From contig PAYS01000017.1 in assembly GCA_002715265.1 (NCBI GenBank), forward strand, positions 23,440-66,774: a stretch of DNA of 43,335 nt. Reading direction: 5' to 3'. Under the pieces are notes generated by a model. It had not been told where the DNA came from. It saw only the letters and a program-made list of their open reading frames with translations, and searched no databases. Source of the DNA: Candidatus Pelagibacterales bacterium. GTDB lineage: Bacteria; Pseudomonadota; Alphaproteobacteria; TMED109. The position numbers and the translations under genes are program-made. Below, one piece after another: positions 17,381 through 29,470 of the stretch (its first letter is position 1; each line of letters starts with the position of its first letter).

Positions 17381-17416
17381 GGGGACGTATGTGCGGTTGG
17401 TAAGCACGGGGACGTA
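17381..17416 (+). repeat. Direct repeat of the tRNA 5' end with an intervening hairpin
   Basis: GGGGACGTA occurs at 17381-17389 and again at 17408-17416, where it forms the start of the tRNA acceptor arm. Between them GTGC (17391-17394) and GCAC (17404-17407) can pair around a 9-base loop, ending exactly where the mature tRNA begins. The block is noticeably more GC-rich than its surroundings. It may be a processing signal or the remnant of a duplication. Confidence 0.5.
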
Positions 17417-17484
17417 GCTCAGCTGGATAGAGCAATTGATTCCTAATCAATAGGTCGGAGGTTCGAATCCTCTCGTTCCCACCA
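17408..17484 (+). tRNA. tRNA-Arg (anticodon CCU)
   Basis: A 77-base cloverleaf with 3' CCA encoded. Acceptor GGGGACG (17408-17414) pairs with CGTTCCC before discriminator A (17481). The D arm is GCTCAGCTGGATAGAGC, the anticodon stem is ATTGA/TCAAT around loop TTCCTAA with CCT at positions 34-36, and the T arm is GGAGG-TTCGAAT-CCTCT. It reads the rare AGG arginine codon. Its last base abuts the stop codon of the convergent CoA-transferase-like gene with no gap. Confidence 0.96.
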
Positions 17485-18303
17485 TTAGTTATTTCCTAGC
17501 AGTATGCCGTGTGGATCAATGTCTTCACGTATAATTTTTAGTTCGTGTTTTTGTGGTGATTTGGTATTTTTTATATTGTTTAGATTTCCTAATTCAAAAC
17601 CTGTTGAATCTTGAAGATCTTTTAAACTTACATTTGGATGGATAGACCTTACTTTAATTTTGCCTTTAATTTTATCAAAATCAAAAATACATTTTGGAGT
17701 AATAACTAGTTCAGGTCCTCCTCTAGTTAAGCCAAGCTTTTTTCTTCCTTTTTTACCATCTGGGTAGCCTACTCCCGTAATATAGTCTACTTTGTTTGTA
17801 AAAGCTCTTTTTTCATGATGTGGCATCATCACATATTCTCTTCCAAACATTGAAAAATGTTCTGGAAGAAAAATAGGTCCTACCATTCTTACTCTAGGTT
17901 TATCGTGATTTCCAATACAAACACTATTTATATTTCCCTGTTTATCAATTTGAATTCCTGATCCAAAACCAAAACTAATACTCCCTCTTCTAAAACTATA
18001 TTGGTAAGGATATGTAAGATATTGCCCTTCGCAGGGAATGTCTCTCAAAGTTTCATCATATTCAGCATTAGGAAGGCGTGTTAATTTTGATAAATCAGGG
18101 TTTTGTATCCATCCTGCGAAAATAATATTTAAATCAGGAGCGTGAGTACGTCTTGCTAGCTCCATTGCTACTAATGGAATTGCGGTAATATATAGTGCTG
18201 CAGGTCCTCCAGTAGCTAAACCAGTAAAACCTACTTCACCATTTTTAAATTCTTTAGATAAATTAACAGCAATAAGCTCATTCAAAGTGTAGTCTATATT
18301 CAT
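17485..18303 (-). CDS. CoA-transferase-fold subunit beta, IpdB-like
   Basis: Second subunit of a heteromeric class I CoA-transferase-fold enzyme, 272 residues. The N-terminal part (EVGFTGLATGGPAALYITAI) and a C-terminal segment with SIHPNVSLKDLQDSTGFEL and a late IDPHGI resemble, from memory, IpdB. IpdAB of Mycobacterium and Rhodococcus hydrolyses a cyclic keto-acyl-CoA in steroid ring degradation. I do not see the S-E-N-G type motif with the catalytic Glu of true 3-oxoacid CoA-transferases, which also favours a hydrolase-like role. It starts by 4-base overlap with the alpha subunit. The alternative is a glutaconate or other dicarboxylate CoA-transferase. Confidence 0.75.
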   Translation of the reverse strand: MNIDYTLNELIAVNLSKEFKNGEVGFTGLATGGPAALYITAIPLVAMELARRTHAPDLNIIFAGWIQNPDLSKLTRLPNAEYDETLRDIPCEGQYLTYPYQYSFRRGSISFGFGSGIQIDKQGNINSVCIGNHDKPRVRMVGPIFLPEHFSMFGREYVMMPHHEKRAFTNKVDYITGVGYPDGKKGRKKLGLTRGGPELVITPKCIFDFDKIKGKIKVRSIHPNVSLKDLQDSTGFELGNLNNIKNTKSPQKHELKIIREDIDPHGILLGNN

Positions 18304-19208
18304 TTTTGTGTATCCACTTGGAGCAGAGAAGATAAATGTGCTCCTCCTATTTTATTAAGATAATCATCATTATTTTTTGATGAATGTATGTATTTATTTA
18401 TGTATTTTTTAAAAGATTCGTTATTGTCTGATGCTCTAATATATTCATTCCAATGTTCTTCATCGTCTGAATATTTACCTAACATAGAAGTAGGGTGAGC
18501 TCCGAAAGGTGCTAACGAAATACTTTTTACCCTGTGATTAGGAATTTCTATTAAATTAGGATGTTTTTTAATAAAATTATTACTTACTATTTTTTCCACT
18601 GTAACTAACGTATTTTCGCAACTTCTAGATATTAATATATCCAAACTTTGAGCCATATTTTTGTAACTTGGAGATATTATATTGCCAAATTCATCTGCTG
18701 CTAATGCGTGAATAATTGCTACATTTGGTTTGGCGGCAGGAACTGCGTGCAATATTTTTTTTGTAATTGGACATAAAAACTTTTTTATATTTTTATTAAG
18801 TTTAACAATATCAGTTCCTCCTAAACCAGCTGCAGGCCAAAAATCAAGATTTTCTTGGCTAGCTCTAAACCTATCTATACAAATTAATTCAGGATAATCT
18901 ATTACTTTGATTTTGCCTTTTTCAGCGTAATTTCTAAAGTTTGGTGCTAATCCATACTTTTCAAATCCCACATAACTAGTTTCAATTGATTTTAAACTAT
19001 TAGCACCAATTAAAATGTCAGATTCTATGCTATTTGTTACTCCAATTACAGTTAGATTTTTAATTTTTTGTTTAATGATTTCTCTAACAAAAGCCATAGG
19101 TCTCTGATAAATTGCAAACCCTCCTATAGCTATAGTATCGCCTTTATTAATATTTTTTACAGCATCTTCCAAGTTAATTATTTTTTTTGATCTTTTAGGA
19201 AATGACAT
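18300..19208 (-). CDS. CoA-transferase-fold subunit alpha, IpdA/GctA-like
   Basis: First subunit of the pair, 302 residues. It opens with a typical GDTIAIGGFAIYQRPMAFVREI segment (about 19-40). It has FWPAAGLGGTDIV at mid-protein, VPAAKPNVAIIHALAADEFGN as the CoA-transferase core strand-turn, VTVEKIVS, and APFGAHPTSMLGKYSDD near 240. A Glu in VIDYPELI (about 104) could match the catalytic Glu reported for IpdA, but this needs an alignment. The 4-base overlap with the beta subunit indicates stoichiometric synthesis. It lies 62 bases downstream of the sirtuin gene on the same strand. Confidence 0.78.
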   Translation of the reverse strand: MSFPKRSKKIINLEDAVKNINKGDTIAIGGFAIYQRPMAFVREIIKQKIKNLTVIGVTNSIESDILIGANSLKSIETSYVGFEKYGLAPNFRNYAEKGKIKVIDYPELICIDRFRASQENLDFWPAAGLGGTDIVKLNKNIKKFLCPITKKILHAVPAAKPNVAIIHALAADEFGNIISPSYKNMAQSLDILISRSCENTLVTVEKIVSNNFIKKHPNLIEIPNHRVKSISLAPFGAHPTSMLGKYSDDEEHWNEYIRASDNNESFKKYINKYIHSSKNNDDYLNKIGGAHLSSLLQVDTQK

Positions 19209-19270: not shown

Positions 19271-20017
19271 TCAAAATTTAATATTTGAAAGAGTTTTTCC
19301 TATTTCGTCATTTATTACTAAATGAGCAATTGAATCTAATTCTGTATTCTCTCTATTAATAATTATTAATTTTGATCCATTCTTTCGTGCAATGATGGGT
19401 AAATTTGCAGCAGGATAAACTTTAAGCGATGAACCTATGACTATGAATAAATCACATTCAAGGGCAGCTTTTTCCGCGACCCTCATCTCTTTTTCTGGCA
19501 TAGGTTGTCCAAAAGATATGGTGGCTGATTTAATAATTCCATTACAGTCAGAACATTTAGGAGCAACAGTATAGTTATTATTATTTTTTTCCAAAAATCT
19601 TTTTACATATTTTAGTTCGTATCTTTTATTACAATTAAGACATTTAGCAAAAGTACTATTTCCATGTAATTCAATAATTTTATTAGATTGAATCCCTGAA
19701 TCGTGATGAAGATTATCAATATTTTGAGTTATGACGTAAGAAACCTTATGTAATTTAAAAAGCTTAGCTATTACTTTGTGTCCTATATTAGGTTTAGCAA
19801 TATTTATATCTTTATCGATTTCAAATTTTCGTCTCCATGATTCTAGTTGCCATTTTTCAGATGAAATGAAGTCTTGAAACATTATTGGTTTCATCCTTGT
19901 CCAAATTCCTCCAGGGCTTCTAAAATCAGGTATTCCTGATTCTGTGCTTATTCCAGCACCTGTAAAAAAAACAATATTATTAGAGCTTTGTATTAATTCA
20001 TTTAAACTATAATTCAT
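19271..20017 (-). CDS. cobB: NAD-dependent protein deacylase (sirtuin, CobB-type)
   Basis: Removes acyl groups from lysine side chains using NAD. 248 residues from ATG 20017; the frame extends 10 codons upstream, but this ATG overlaps the upstream stop as TAATG and gives a standard sirtuin N-terminus. Motifs: FTGAGISTESGIPDFRSP (about 18-35), TQNIDNLHHDSG, the catalytic His in ELHGN, a four-Cys zinc site (CLNC and CSDC), and FGQPMPEKEM and GSSLKVYP. Coupling to the DpgC-like gene suggests it may reverse acylation of acyl-CoA enzymes, but general CobB function is equally possible. Confidence 0.94.
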   Translation of the reverse strand: MNYSLNELIQSSNNIVFFTGAGISTESGIPDFRSPGGIWTRMKPIMFQDFISSEKWQLESWRRKFEIDKDINIAKPNIGHKVIAKLFKLHKVSYVITQNIDNLHHDSGIQSNKIIELHGNSTFAKCLNCNKRYELKYVKRFLEKNNNNYTVAPKCSDCNGIIKSATISFGQPMPEKEMRVAEKAALECDLFIVIGSSLKVYPAANLPIIARKNGSKLIIINRENTELDSIAHLVINDEIGKTLSNIKF

Positions 20018-21384
20018 TATTCTTTTGGCCTTGAGGCTGCATTCCAATAATATTCTAAATTTTTAATTAGGGCAGGACTAAAGTGACAGTATGCTTGGTC
20101 ATGACAATAAGCGCTCATATATTTTCTAAATGTATCTAGAGGTTCTTGTCCAATTCTAAATGCTCTTCTATTGCTAGAAGCCCCTACTACTCCCGAGTTA
20201 GTATAGGCGTTTATTGTTTTTAATAGGCTTTTATCCATATTATTTTTTGAAATAATTTCGTCGCAAATTAGTTTTCCCTCTGGTGAATTAGATTTAATAG
20301 TTAGGCCATTTTGTATAGCTTGCCTTGCAATTCTATCTCCTGTAAACCTCCATAACCTTAAATTTGCCATCCCTGGAATTATACCTTCTTTCCTTGCAGG
20401 TAGAGTCATATAGCTTTGATCTTCAGCCATAATATGATCCATAACTAAAAGATATTGGCATCCTCCTCCTATTGCAAAAGTATCTAAAGTTGCTATCCAT
20501 GGCTTTTCTTTGATTGGAAAGAGTGAATTTTCAGGAGAAGTATCTGTATTAGCAATTCCTCGAAAAACTTTATTTACTGCCCCCATGTCTCTTATGATAT
20601 ACCAAAGGAAAGAAATTTTACCTTGATATAAATGTGTCAAATTTATACCAGCACCAAAAGTTCTTTTGTCAGCATATTTTGGATGATCGACTTTTTCTCC
20701 TCTTAATACACAAATTTCAGTATCATCATCTAAGATAGCTAGATCAATTGCTGCTTCAAGTGGTAATAGGGTTCTCTCATCTTCAGCATTTAAATACTGT
20801 TTATTCTCTAATGTTACAATTATGTGTTTGTCGTATTTTTTTACACTGGCACCATCGAATTGAACTTTTTTATTAGTTTTAAATTCATCCATTTTTTCTT
20901 TAGCTAATTGACTAGGTAGCAACATAGAATGACACAAATGATTGCCTTCTTCTTGGTGAGATAAAATTGATGACAAAAATAATCCTTGGTCAGTTTCAAT
21001 ACCATCTTTATCTTTTAAAAACTTCTTATTCTCTATTATAAGTTCTTCTTTAGAAGGATTTAAATAAGGAACATAGTCGTTAGCAGAAAAAACTAATTCA
21101 TTGATTTTAAAATGGTTTTTTTTATTATGAGTTATTAAGTTATAGATTGTTTTAGAGTGCTCATCTAAAAACACTTTCTTTGTATTTTCAACAACTGCTC
21201 TTAATTTTTTTCTGTCTTTTTTTATTTTGATTTTATTATTTTCAGATATTGCTTCTTTCCAAAAATTACTAAAATATTTTTTATCTTTTTGAAAATTGTT
21301 TGTTAATTTTGCATCGAATTTAAGAATATTATTATTATTTATATTTAGTTTTTTTATTTGATTCATTAAGTTTTTTATTTTCAT
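20017..21384 (-). CDS. DpgC-like crotonase-fold dioxygenase homologue
   Basis: 455 residues: an N-terminal, mainly helical part (about 1-180) followed by a crotonase-fold domain. From memory it matches DpgC, the enzyme that oxidises 3,5-dihydroxyphenylacetyl-CoA with O2 without metal or organic cofactor. Shared-looking segments are NHLCHSMLLP (148-157), YLNAEDERT (197-205), VLRGEKVDHPKYADKRTFGA (226-245), GINLTHLYQGKIS (246-258), DTFAIGGGCQYLLVMDH (301-317) and LPARKEGIIPGMANLRLWRF (328-347). Ordinary enoyl-CoA hydratases lack the long N-terminal part. It lies 6 bases after the iminopeptidase and overlaps cobB by one base. Glycopeptide synthesis genes are absent, so the natural substrate is unknown; an aryl- or cyclic acyl-CoA is the best guess. 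A non-oxygenase hydratase of the same subfamily remains possible. Confidence 0.8.
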   Translation of the reverse strand: MKIKNLMNQIKKLNINNNNILKFDAKLTNNFQKDKKYFSNFWKEAISENNKIKIKKDRKKLRAVVENTKKVFLDEHSKTIYNLITHNKKNHFKINELVFSANDYVPYLNPSKEELIIENKKFLKDKDGIETDQGLFLSSILSHQEEGNHLCHSMLLPSQLAKEKMDEFKTNKKVQFDGASVKKYDKHIIVTLENKQYLNAEDERTLLPLEAAIDLAILDDDTEICVLRGEKVDHPKYADKRTFGAGINLTHLYQGKISFLWYIIRDMGAVNKVFRGIANTDTSPENSLFPIKEKPWIATLDTFAIGGGCQYLLVMDHIMAEDQSYMTLPARKEGIIPGMANLRLWRFTGDRIARQAIQNGLTIKSNSPEGKLICDEIISKNNMDKSLLKTINAYTNSGVVGASSNRRAFRIGQEPLDTFRKYMSAYCHDQAYCHFSPALIKNLEYYWNAASRPKE

Positions 21385-28139: not shown

Positions 28140-28249
28140 TTTACTTTCCTATCTAATTTAAGTACGGAGTAAAAACTAATATAGATTTATTTAAATATTT
28201 TTATGCTATATAAGTTTATGTAAGATATTTAATTTTGATGAGGTTGATT

Positions 28250-29470
28250 ATGGATAAATTAGAAACTAGGTCAGTTGAAGAGAGAGAAAATTATCAATTT
28301 ACTAAACTAAATGAAATTTTTTTAAACGCAAAAAAATGTTCAAAGGGATGGAATAAAATATTAAAAGATATCAATTTTGATAAAATTTCTGATAGATCAT
28401 TTTTACAAAAGTTACCCATTACTCGTAAGTCCTCTTTATCAAAAATTCAAGCGGAGAGCCCGCCTTTCGGAGATTTAACAACTATTTCTACAAATGAATT
28501 TAAAAATATATTTGTATCTCCCGGTCCTATTTATGAACCAGGTGGAGATCAAGATTTTTGGAGAATGTCTCGGGCGATGAACGCTGCAGGTTTCAAGAAG
28601 GGAGAGATTTTATACAATACGTTTTCATATCATTTAACACCAGCAGGTCAAATGATGGAGCAAGGTGGAGAAAAATTGGGAATGTGTGTAATACCAGGAG
28701 GAATTGGAAATACAGAACAACAGCTTTCAGCAATAGAAAATTTAAAGCCTGATAGGTATGTAGGTACGCCATCTTTTTTAAAAATGTTATTGGATTCAAG
28801 TATGAAAAATAATATTGATATATCTTTTCTTAAAACTGGCTTAGTAGGAGGAGAAGCATGTCCTCCATCGTTAAGTAAAATTTTAAAAGAGCTAGGATGT
28901 CCAGTATTACAATCATATGGCACCGCAGATTTAGGGTTAGTAGCATATGAAACTTGGGATGATGATGGAATGTTTTGTGATGAGGATGTTATTGTTGAGA
29001 TAATTAGACCTGGTTCTGATGAAGTGCTTGAAAATGGTGAAGTTGGAGAATTAGTAGTTACTACATTAAATCCATTTTATCCATTATTTAGATTTGCAAC
29101 AGGAGACTTGTCGGCGGTTATGACAGAGAAAAGTAATTCTGGGAGAACTGCTATGAGGATTAAAGGTTGGATGGGTAGGGCTGACCAGACAACAAAGGTA
29201 AGAGGAATGTTTGTTAGGCCAGAACAAATTGCTAAAATAGTTAATGCCTCTGAAGAAATAATTAAGGCAAGATTAGTAGTAGGTAATGTAGATCACAAGG
29301 ATACGCTAAAGTTATTTGTTGAAACAATTAATAAAGATGAAAAAGTTATATCTTCAATTGAGGAGCAAACTAGGTCAGAATTAAAATTAAGAGCAGAAAT
29401 TGAATTAGTTGATAGTGGCTCATTAGTTAATGATGGTTTGGTAATAGAAGACACTCGAACTTATGAATAA
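28250..29470 (+). CDS. PaaK-like adenylate-forming acyl-CoA ligase
   Basis: Phenylacetate-CoA ligase family member: activates a carboxylate with ATP and joins it to CoA. 406 residues from ATG 28250, chosen because GAGG (28240-28243) sits six bases upstream; the frame also offers TTG 28235. Recognisable segments are FVSPGPIYEPGG (nucleotide loop), YNTFSYHLTPAGQMMEQGGE, VGTPSFL, VLQSYGTADLGLVAYE (adenine pocket) and FRFATGDLS. The C-terminal half resembles the AMP-binding C domain with GRADQTTKVRGMFV. The substrate is unknown and need not be phenylacetate. It heads the long run that includes the ccm genes. Confidence 0.88.
   Translation: MDKLETRSVEERENYQFTKLNEIFLNAKKCSKGWNKILKDINFDKISDRSFLQKLPITRKSSLSKIQAESPPFGDLTTISTNEFKNIFVSPGPIYEPGGDQDFWRMSRAMNAAGFKKGEILYNTFSYHLTPAGQMMEQGGEKLGMCVIPGGIGNTEQQLSAIENLKPDRYVGTPSFLKMLLDSSMKNNIDISFLKTGLVGGEACPPSLSKILKELGCPVLQSYGTADLGLVAYETWDDDGMFCDEDVIVEIIRPGSDEVLENGEVGELVVTTLNPFYPLFRFATGDLSAVMTEKSNSGRTAMRIKGWMGRADQTTKVRGMFVRPEQIAKIVNASEEIIKARLVVGNVDHKDTLKLFVETINKDEKVISSIEEQTRSELKLRAEIELVDSGSLVNDGLVIEDTRTYE

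Follow-up and report, generated by a model that had tools for sequence, protein, structure and literature searches.

The window, by which we mean the whole stretch of 43,335 nucleotides analysed here, holds two adjacent genes resembling the subunits of CoA-transferases, and the question is whether their product transfers CoA or performs another reaction on CoA thioesters. A preliminary description of this DNA had named a CoA-transferase-fold pair, and two coupled ORFs lie exactly at 17485-19208 on the minus strand. The alpha subunit (18300..19208, 302 aa) and the beta subunit (17485..18303, 272 aa) overlap by 4 nt at the alpha stop and beta start. Both match Pfam CoA_trans (2.7e-18 for alpha and 3.8e-06 for beta). 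In NCBIfam, alpha reached 48 bits with 3-oxoacid and acetate CoA-transferase families, against cut-offs of 128.5 and 315, and beta matched no family. The only match to alpha in the source assembly (1.67 Mb, 89% completeness) at E ≤ 10 was alpha itself. The nearest ortholog, in genome G008, is 74% identical in alpha and 80% in beta. Both subunits are under purifying selection, with a dN/dS against this ortholog of about 0.1, as for three neighbouring genes, at a dS near saturation.

The two subunits have the fold of glutaconate CoA-transferase. AlphaFold (AF2) models of the single subunits, built from 11 and 13 sequences, had a pLDDT of 83.6 and a pTM of 0.86 for alpha and 80.8 and 0.84 for beta, in which residues 80-104 and 142-145 scored under 50. 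The best solved match of both was GctAB from Acidaminococcus fermentans (1poi), with VIA Z 34.8, rmsd 2.1 and 290 aligned residues for GctA (1poi_A) and VIA Z 26.6, rmsd 2.7 and 250 aligned residues for GctB (1poi_B). The COCHEA-CoA hydrolase IpdAB, solved from R. jostii RHA1 (6co6, 6co9, 6coj) and M. tuberculosis (6con), gave VIA Z 33.5, rmsd 2.2 and 282 aligned residues for IpdA (6co6_A) and VIA Z 23.3, rmsd 3.0 and 231 aligned residues for IpdB (6con_B). The decarboxylase AibAB (5mzw) gave VIA Z 31.3, rmsd 2.1 and 260 aligned residues for AibA and VIA Z 23.9, rmsd 2.8 and 237 aligned residues for AibB (5mzy_B). Judged by these models, the fold does not separate a transferase from a hydrolase.

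Residues at the catalytic places of the two subunits

Both subunits score highest against GctAB in sequence similarity and in fold, but GctAB differs from them at two places. In beta, phmmer and MAFFT aligned the motif IIFAGW with IIVESG of GctB, which puts Ala63 (codon 18115..18117, minus strand, counted from the ORF start) where GctB has its acyl-accepting, catalytic Glu54. The S-E-N-G motif is absent from beta, as the preliminary description had stated. Alanine also stands in this column in L010, L011 and seven further paired rows of the table described below. IpdB likewise lacks the Glu; where the window has Ala, it has Gly57 (PMC5380842), or Ser in L029 and L032.

In alpha, Glu107 of VIDYPE (codon 18888..18890, minus strand, counted in the same way) paired in the phmmer and MAFFT sequence alignments with the Glu of REMDEGM in IpdA. 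This is IpdA Glu105, which is an Ala in entry 6coj, titled IpdAB E105A, so the earlier suggestion that the VIDYPE Glu stands at the IpdA-type place agrees with the alignments. In the alpha model, Glu107 follows a strand and is the first residue of helix 107-118. The column holds Gln in GctA and Gly in AibA. The alpha Glu and the two-subunit fold are thus common to IpdAB and the window pair, whereas their identity over the structural alignments is 23-25%. Beta had also been likened to IpdB through its C-terminal half; such a match exists (query 117-266, 1.9e-13), but the one to GctB is stronger and nearly full-length (4-265, 1.1e-32), so the likeness stands while that to GctB is greater.

Distribution of the two glutamates and phylogeny

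Both positions were tabulated in 66 pairs, namely the window pair, GctAB, AibAB and 63 pairs from loci that had been collected because they resemble the window's alpha or beta, many of them near-copies. The alpha Glu occurred in 25/66 pairs, none of which (0/25) had the beta Glu, and the beta Glu in 34/66, none of which (0/34) had the alpha Glu; seven of the 66 had neither and none had both. Together with the alpha Glu, beta carried A (10), G (8), W (5) or S (2), and together with the beta Glu, alpha carried H (30), N (2), Q (1) or A (1). The AibB row is that of the C56A variant and its 'A' is not native. The alpha and beta genes are more than 1 kb apart in three pairs (L079 and the second pair each of L014 and L015). 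Neither the table nor the tree includes duplicated or cut-short loci (L001, L002, L003, L016, L019, L020, L023, L082-L087) or those retrieved to look at DpgC or other surroundings (L052-L074, L077, L078, L080); four unpaired alpha and two unpaired beta genes were dropped afterwards. In L092 (5871-6806) and L093 (6359-7369) an extra alpha-like gene with the Glu follows an alpha-His/beta-Glu pair, and its own beta was not found. Because of this unpaired gene the mutual exclusion of the two glutamates is not established in these two loci.

The joint tree, computed after removal of the motif columns, comprised 67 rows, the 66 pairs and a single IpdA; its reference for IpdAB was this one alpha subunit, and full-length IpdB, ScdL1L2 and ScoAB/AtoDA references were not included. 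The window fell in a 10-row alpha-Glu/beta-Ala clade (support 100/100), its nearest subclade, in which the alpha Glu and beta Ala are kept in 10/10 paired rows. A 5-row alpha-Glu/beta-Trp clade is its sister. The resulting 15-row clade (100/97) includes Shinella, Azospirillum, Microvirga, a Hyphomicrobiaceae MAG and three genomes of another class. All but one of the 34 beta-Glu rows form a single clade (98/89) with GctAB inside and the window clade outside.

Hence the tree did not place both subunits inside proven transferases with an intact beta Glu, and the view of the pair as something other than a normal type I CoA-transferase is borne out by the missing beta Glu and the IpdA-type alpha Glu. 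The relation to IpdAB held only in part: in the best tree IpdA and two IpdAB-like rows stand elsewhere, apart from the window clade, although a joint clade of the two was not rejected (p-AU 0.29, with one IpdAB reference alpha in the tree). A single clade for all 26 alpha-Glu rows was neither demonstrated nor rejected (p-AU 0.16). Support is weak for some of the deep branches, and long branches come together. We discarded the idea that the residue exchange arose in many independent events; the tree needs few switches, and with 2 independent pairs on starred branches the sign test was not significant.

A second alpha-Glu/beta-Gly clade, apart from IpdAB, was formed by L004, L013, L014, L015 and L017, and the pairs of L004 and L013 each follow a gene judged by eye to be thiolase-like. 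An archaeal MAG (Jordarchaeia; L012, 10007-11671) has an alpha-Glu/beta-Gly pair with 42% alpha identity, and a beta-Glu pair of transferase type lies 2.6 kb from it.

Candidate reactions

Since the covalent catalyst has been lost, ordinary CoA transfer through a beta Glu is very unlikely on sequence grounds; in CtfAB the E46A and E46S exchanges at this place abolished activity (PMC12400318). An alpha carboxylate able to act as a general base suggests hydrolysis. The best explanation is probably a hydrolase which uses alpha Glu107 as general base and cleaves a C-C bond, and by analogy we give this reading a probability of roughly 0.55. The pair would be a GctAB-fold heteromer with an exchanged catalytic acid; as in IpdAB, its beta has no Glu at the GctB place (Ala63) and its alpha has a conserved Glu instead (Glu107). 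A CoA thioester would bind in the transferase cleft, Glu107 would act as general base on water, and a C-C bond of an oxo- or enone-type acyl-CoA would be hydrolysed in a retro-aldol or retro-Claisen reaction, whose acyl-CoA product would enter beta-oxidation. The substrate may be cyclic, but nothing indicates that it is. It counts against a C-C hydrolase that the closest solved relative by sequence and fold score, GctAB, is a transferase.

To our knowledge, IpdAB is the only characterised alpha-Glu enzyme. In the 2017 paper (PMC5380842), it did not transfer CoA between short acyl groups, together with a thiolase it converted COCHEA-CoA to MOODA-CoA, and it gave no changed product without the thiolase; the enzyme is described there as opening the ring with the thioester kept. 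By analogy with this one enzyme, we prefer C-C cleavage over thioester hydrolysis.

The pair could instead be an acyl-CoA thioesterase, in which water activated by alpha Glu107 attacks the thioester carbonyl and CoA is released. A shortened beta carboxylate converts type I transferases to acyl-CoA hydrolases, and for one of these, CtfB E46D, a general base acting on water was proposed (PMC12400318). The E46D carboxylate sits on beta, though, and its geometry is not directly transferable, whereas the alpha-Glu enzyme IpdAB is described as keeping the thioester. This makes a thioesterase unlikely.

Slightly less probable is a decarboxylase or another lyase of GctAB fold, like AibAB. AibAB shares the fold and also lacks the beta Glu, with Cys in its place, but AibA has Gly where alpha has Glu107, and AibB Cys56 (the native Cys is taken from entry titles) corresponds to Ala63 in the window. 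The AibB entries vary this residue (C56A, S, N and V). AibAB comes from Myxococcus and acts on 3-methylglutaconyl-CoA, with Cys56 in a catalytic role.

A working CoA-transferase, with alpha Glu107 as acyl acceptor or by a non-covalent route, appears improbable. The similarity to GctAB and the Pfam matches of both subunits favour it, as do the NCBIfam transferase families, which matched alpha only and far below their cut-offs. On the other side, the beta Glu is absent throughout the nearest subclade and the beta Glu-to-Ala and Glu-to-Ser variants of CtfAB were inactive. A decayed or non-catalytic pair is very improbable; the pair is absent at the same place in the relatives G012 and G023, but its frames are intact, its identity to the G008 ortholog and its dN/dS are those given above, and the motif is kept in distant relatives.

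If C-C hydrolysis is right, pathways predicted for marine, rhizobial and other bacteria would need correction, and the chemistry of steroid ring opening would extend to other substrates. The two residues offer an easy criterion for telling probable hydrolases and true CoA-transferases apart under one shared annotation.

Genomic surroundings of the pair

Beta relatives on plasmids of Shinella, Microvirga and Azospirillum were 56.6-58.7% identical to the window beta, and six of them were among the best 40 of 153 matches. Pairs of Shinella sumterensis, Azospirillum argentinense, Microvirga sp. VF16, Shinella sp. PSBB067 and the genomes G436, G774 and G777 belong to the window's clade; all are alpha-Glu/beta-Ala, with 54-59% beta identity to the window and the motifs DYPE and AGW or AGC. 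Unlike the window pair, these relatives occur with LacI regulators, CaiB-type and mostly MaoC-type enzymes, and most also a TPP enzyme and DhaK/DhaL. Eight stretches around same-clade pairs (L011, L075, L088-L093) were searched with genes of the annotated plasmids, where absence from a stretch does not mean absence from the genome. CaiB and LacI were found in 8/8, MaoC in 7/8, an ABC permease, DhaK and DhaL in 6/8 each, and the TPP enzyme in 5/8; for G436 and G777 this gene sits some 9 kb away from the pair, outside the stretch searched. The TPP enzyme of L091 passed the cut-off of NCBIfam PRK06112 ('acetolactate synthase catalytic subunit'). Two diverged alpha-Glu pairs each were present in L090, L091, L075, L088 and L089.

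CoA-thioester chemistry thus surrounds the same-clade relatives outside the marine family, as read from their gene content (CaiB 8/8, MaoC 7/8). From these genes one might expect a branched hydroxyacyl-CoA to be channelled to dihydroxyacetone by the TPP enzyme together with DhaKL. Tentatively, the residue swap from beta to alpha might mark a broad and mostly unnoticed group of C-C hydrolases annotated as CoA-transferases, which extends from bacteria to at least one archaeal MAG. The window clade would be a non-steroid branch of it. In Shinella, Azospirillum and G436-type genomes, where each cluster has two diverged pairs, this branch would act twice in one pathway, which would convert an imported polyol or sugar acid into dihydroxyacetone. 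Among the papers searched, none combined dihydroxyacetone kinase, acetolactate synthase and a CoA-transferase with LacI and MaoC, or with CaiB, though such reports may exist elsewhere.

With 11 plasmid-cluster genes as queries, neither the G008 stretch L010 nor the short L076 gave a match, and the plasmid-cluster TPP enzyme (E ≤ 1e-80) and MaoC (E ≤ 1e-15) were not found in G000, G008, G012 and G023 (73 to 89% complete). CaiB-type genes are common in the marine genomes (10 matches in G000) and therefore say little there. The G436 pairs had no DNA match in E. coli genomes.

In the window, the gene order is PIP, DpgC-like, sirtuin, alpha and beta (all minus), tRNA-Arg(CCT) (17408..17484, plus strand, ARAGORN), FadB-like and thiolase (minus), SDR and class II aldolase; SDR and crotonase-type genes are among the 29 window ORFs named by Pfam or NCBIfam. 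The pair occupies exactly the interval from the sirtuin gene to this tRNA, and the 3' CCA end of the tRNA adjoins the beta stop codon with no gap. G008 has the identical order. G012 (from DpgC on) and G023 share this order and the tRNA but lack the pair. It is therefore an accessory of the locus, and the DpgC-like, sirtuin, FadB-like and thiolase genes do not identify its pathway or substrate. In steroid degradation, a thiolase is reported to act after IpdAB (PMC5380842), but the window's thiolase is kept in relatives that lack the pair. A gain of the pair before the split of G000 and G008 and a later loss in G012 and G023 would fit the sequence identities. A mobile element at the tRNA found no support: allowing up to 3 mismatches, the tRNA 3' end does not recur in the window, none of the 29 named ORFs is an integrase, and the GC of the pair region is like that of its flanks; the matter was left as presence or absence.

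The DpgC-like gene (20017-21384, minus strand) encodes a 455-aa protein that matches DpgC, a dioxygenase working without a cofactor, over residues 70-432 (3e-77) and reached 344 bits in NCBIfam, below the cut-off of 530. The residues at E189, R254 and Q299 of DpgC, their places counted in the alignment, are kept. A general link between this gene and the pair was rejected because their distributions differ: at E ≤ 1e-30 the gene occurs in 11/28 family genomes and 12/61 of all relatives searched, and 2/28 family genomes have a close alpha (at least 73%, E ≤ 1e-20). The gene was found in 10/385 class genomes, the window's own included, and no alpha or beta lay around 10 DpgC-like places in the nine others (mostly ~19 kb on each side, ~9 kb for one); the only matches in this search were in L013 and L014, included as known cases. 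In G769 and G770, of the alpha-Glu clade of L013 and L014, a DpgC-like gene stands on a contig as long as that of L013 and L014, apparently the same one, ~18 and ~13 kb from the pairs. The window also encodes a PaaK-like acyl-CoA ligase (28235-29470, plus strand; 153 bits against a cut-off of 700), and in G337 a 54% identical gene lies ~1.3 kb from an alpha relative, with one ORF between them.
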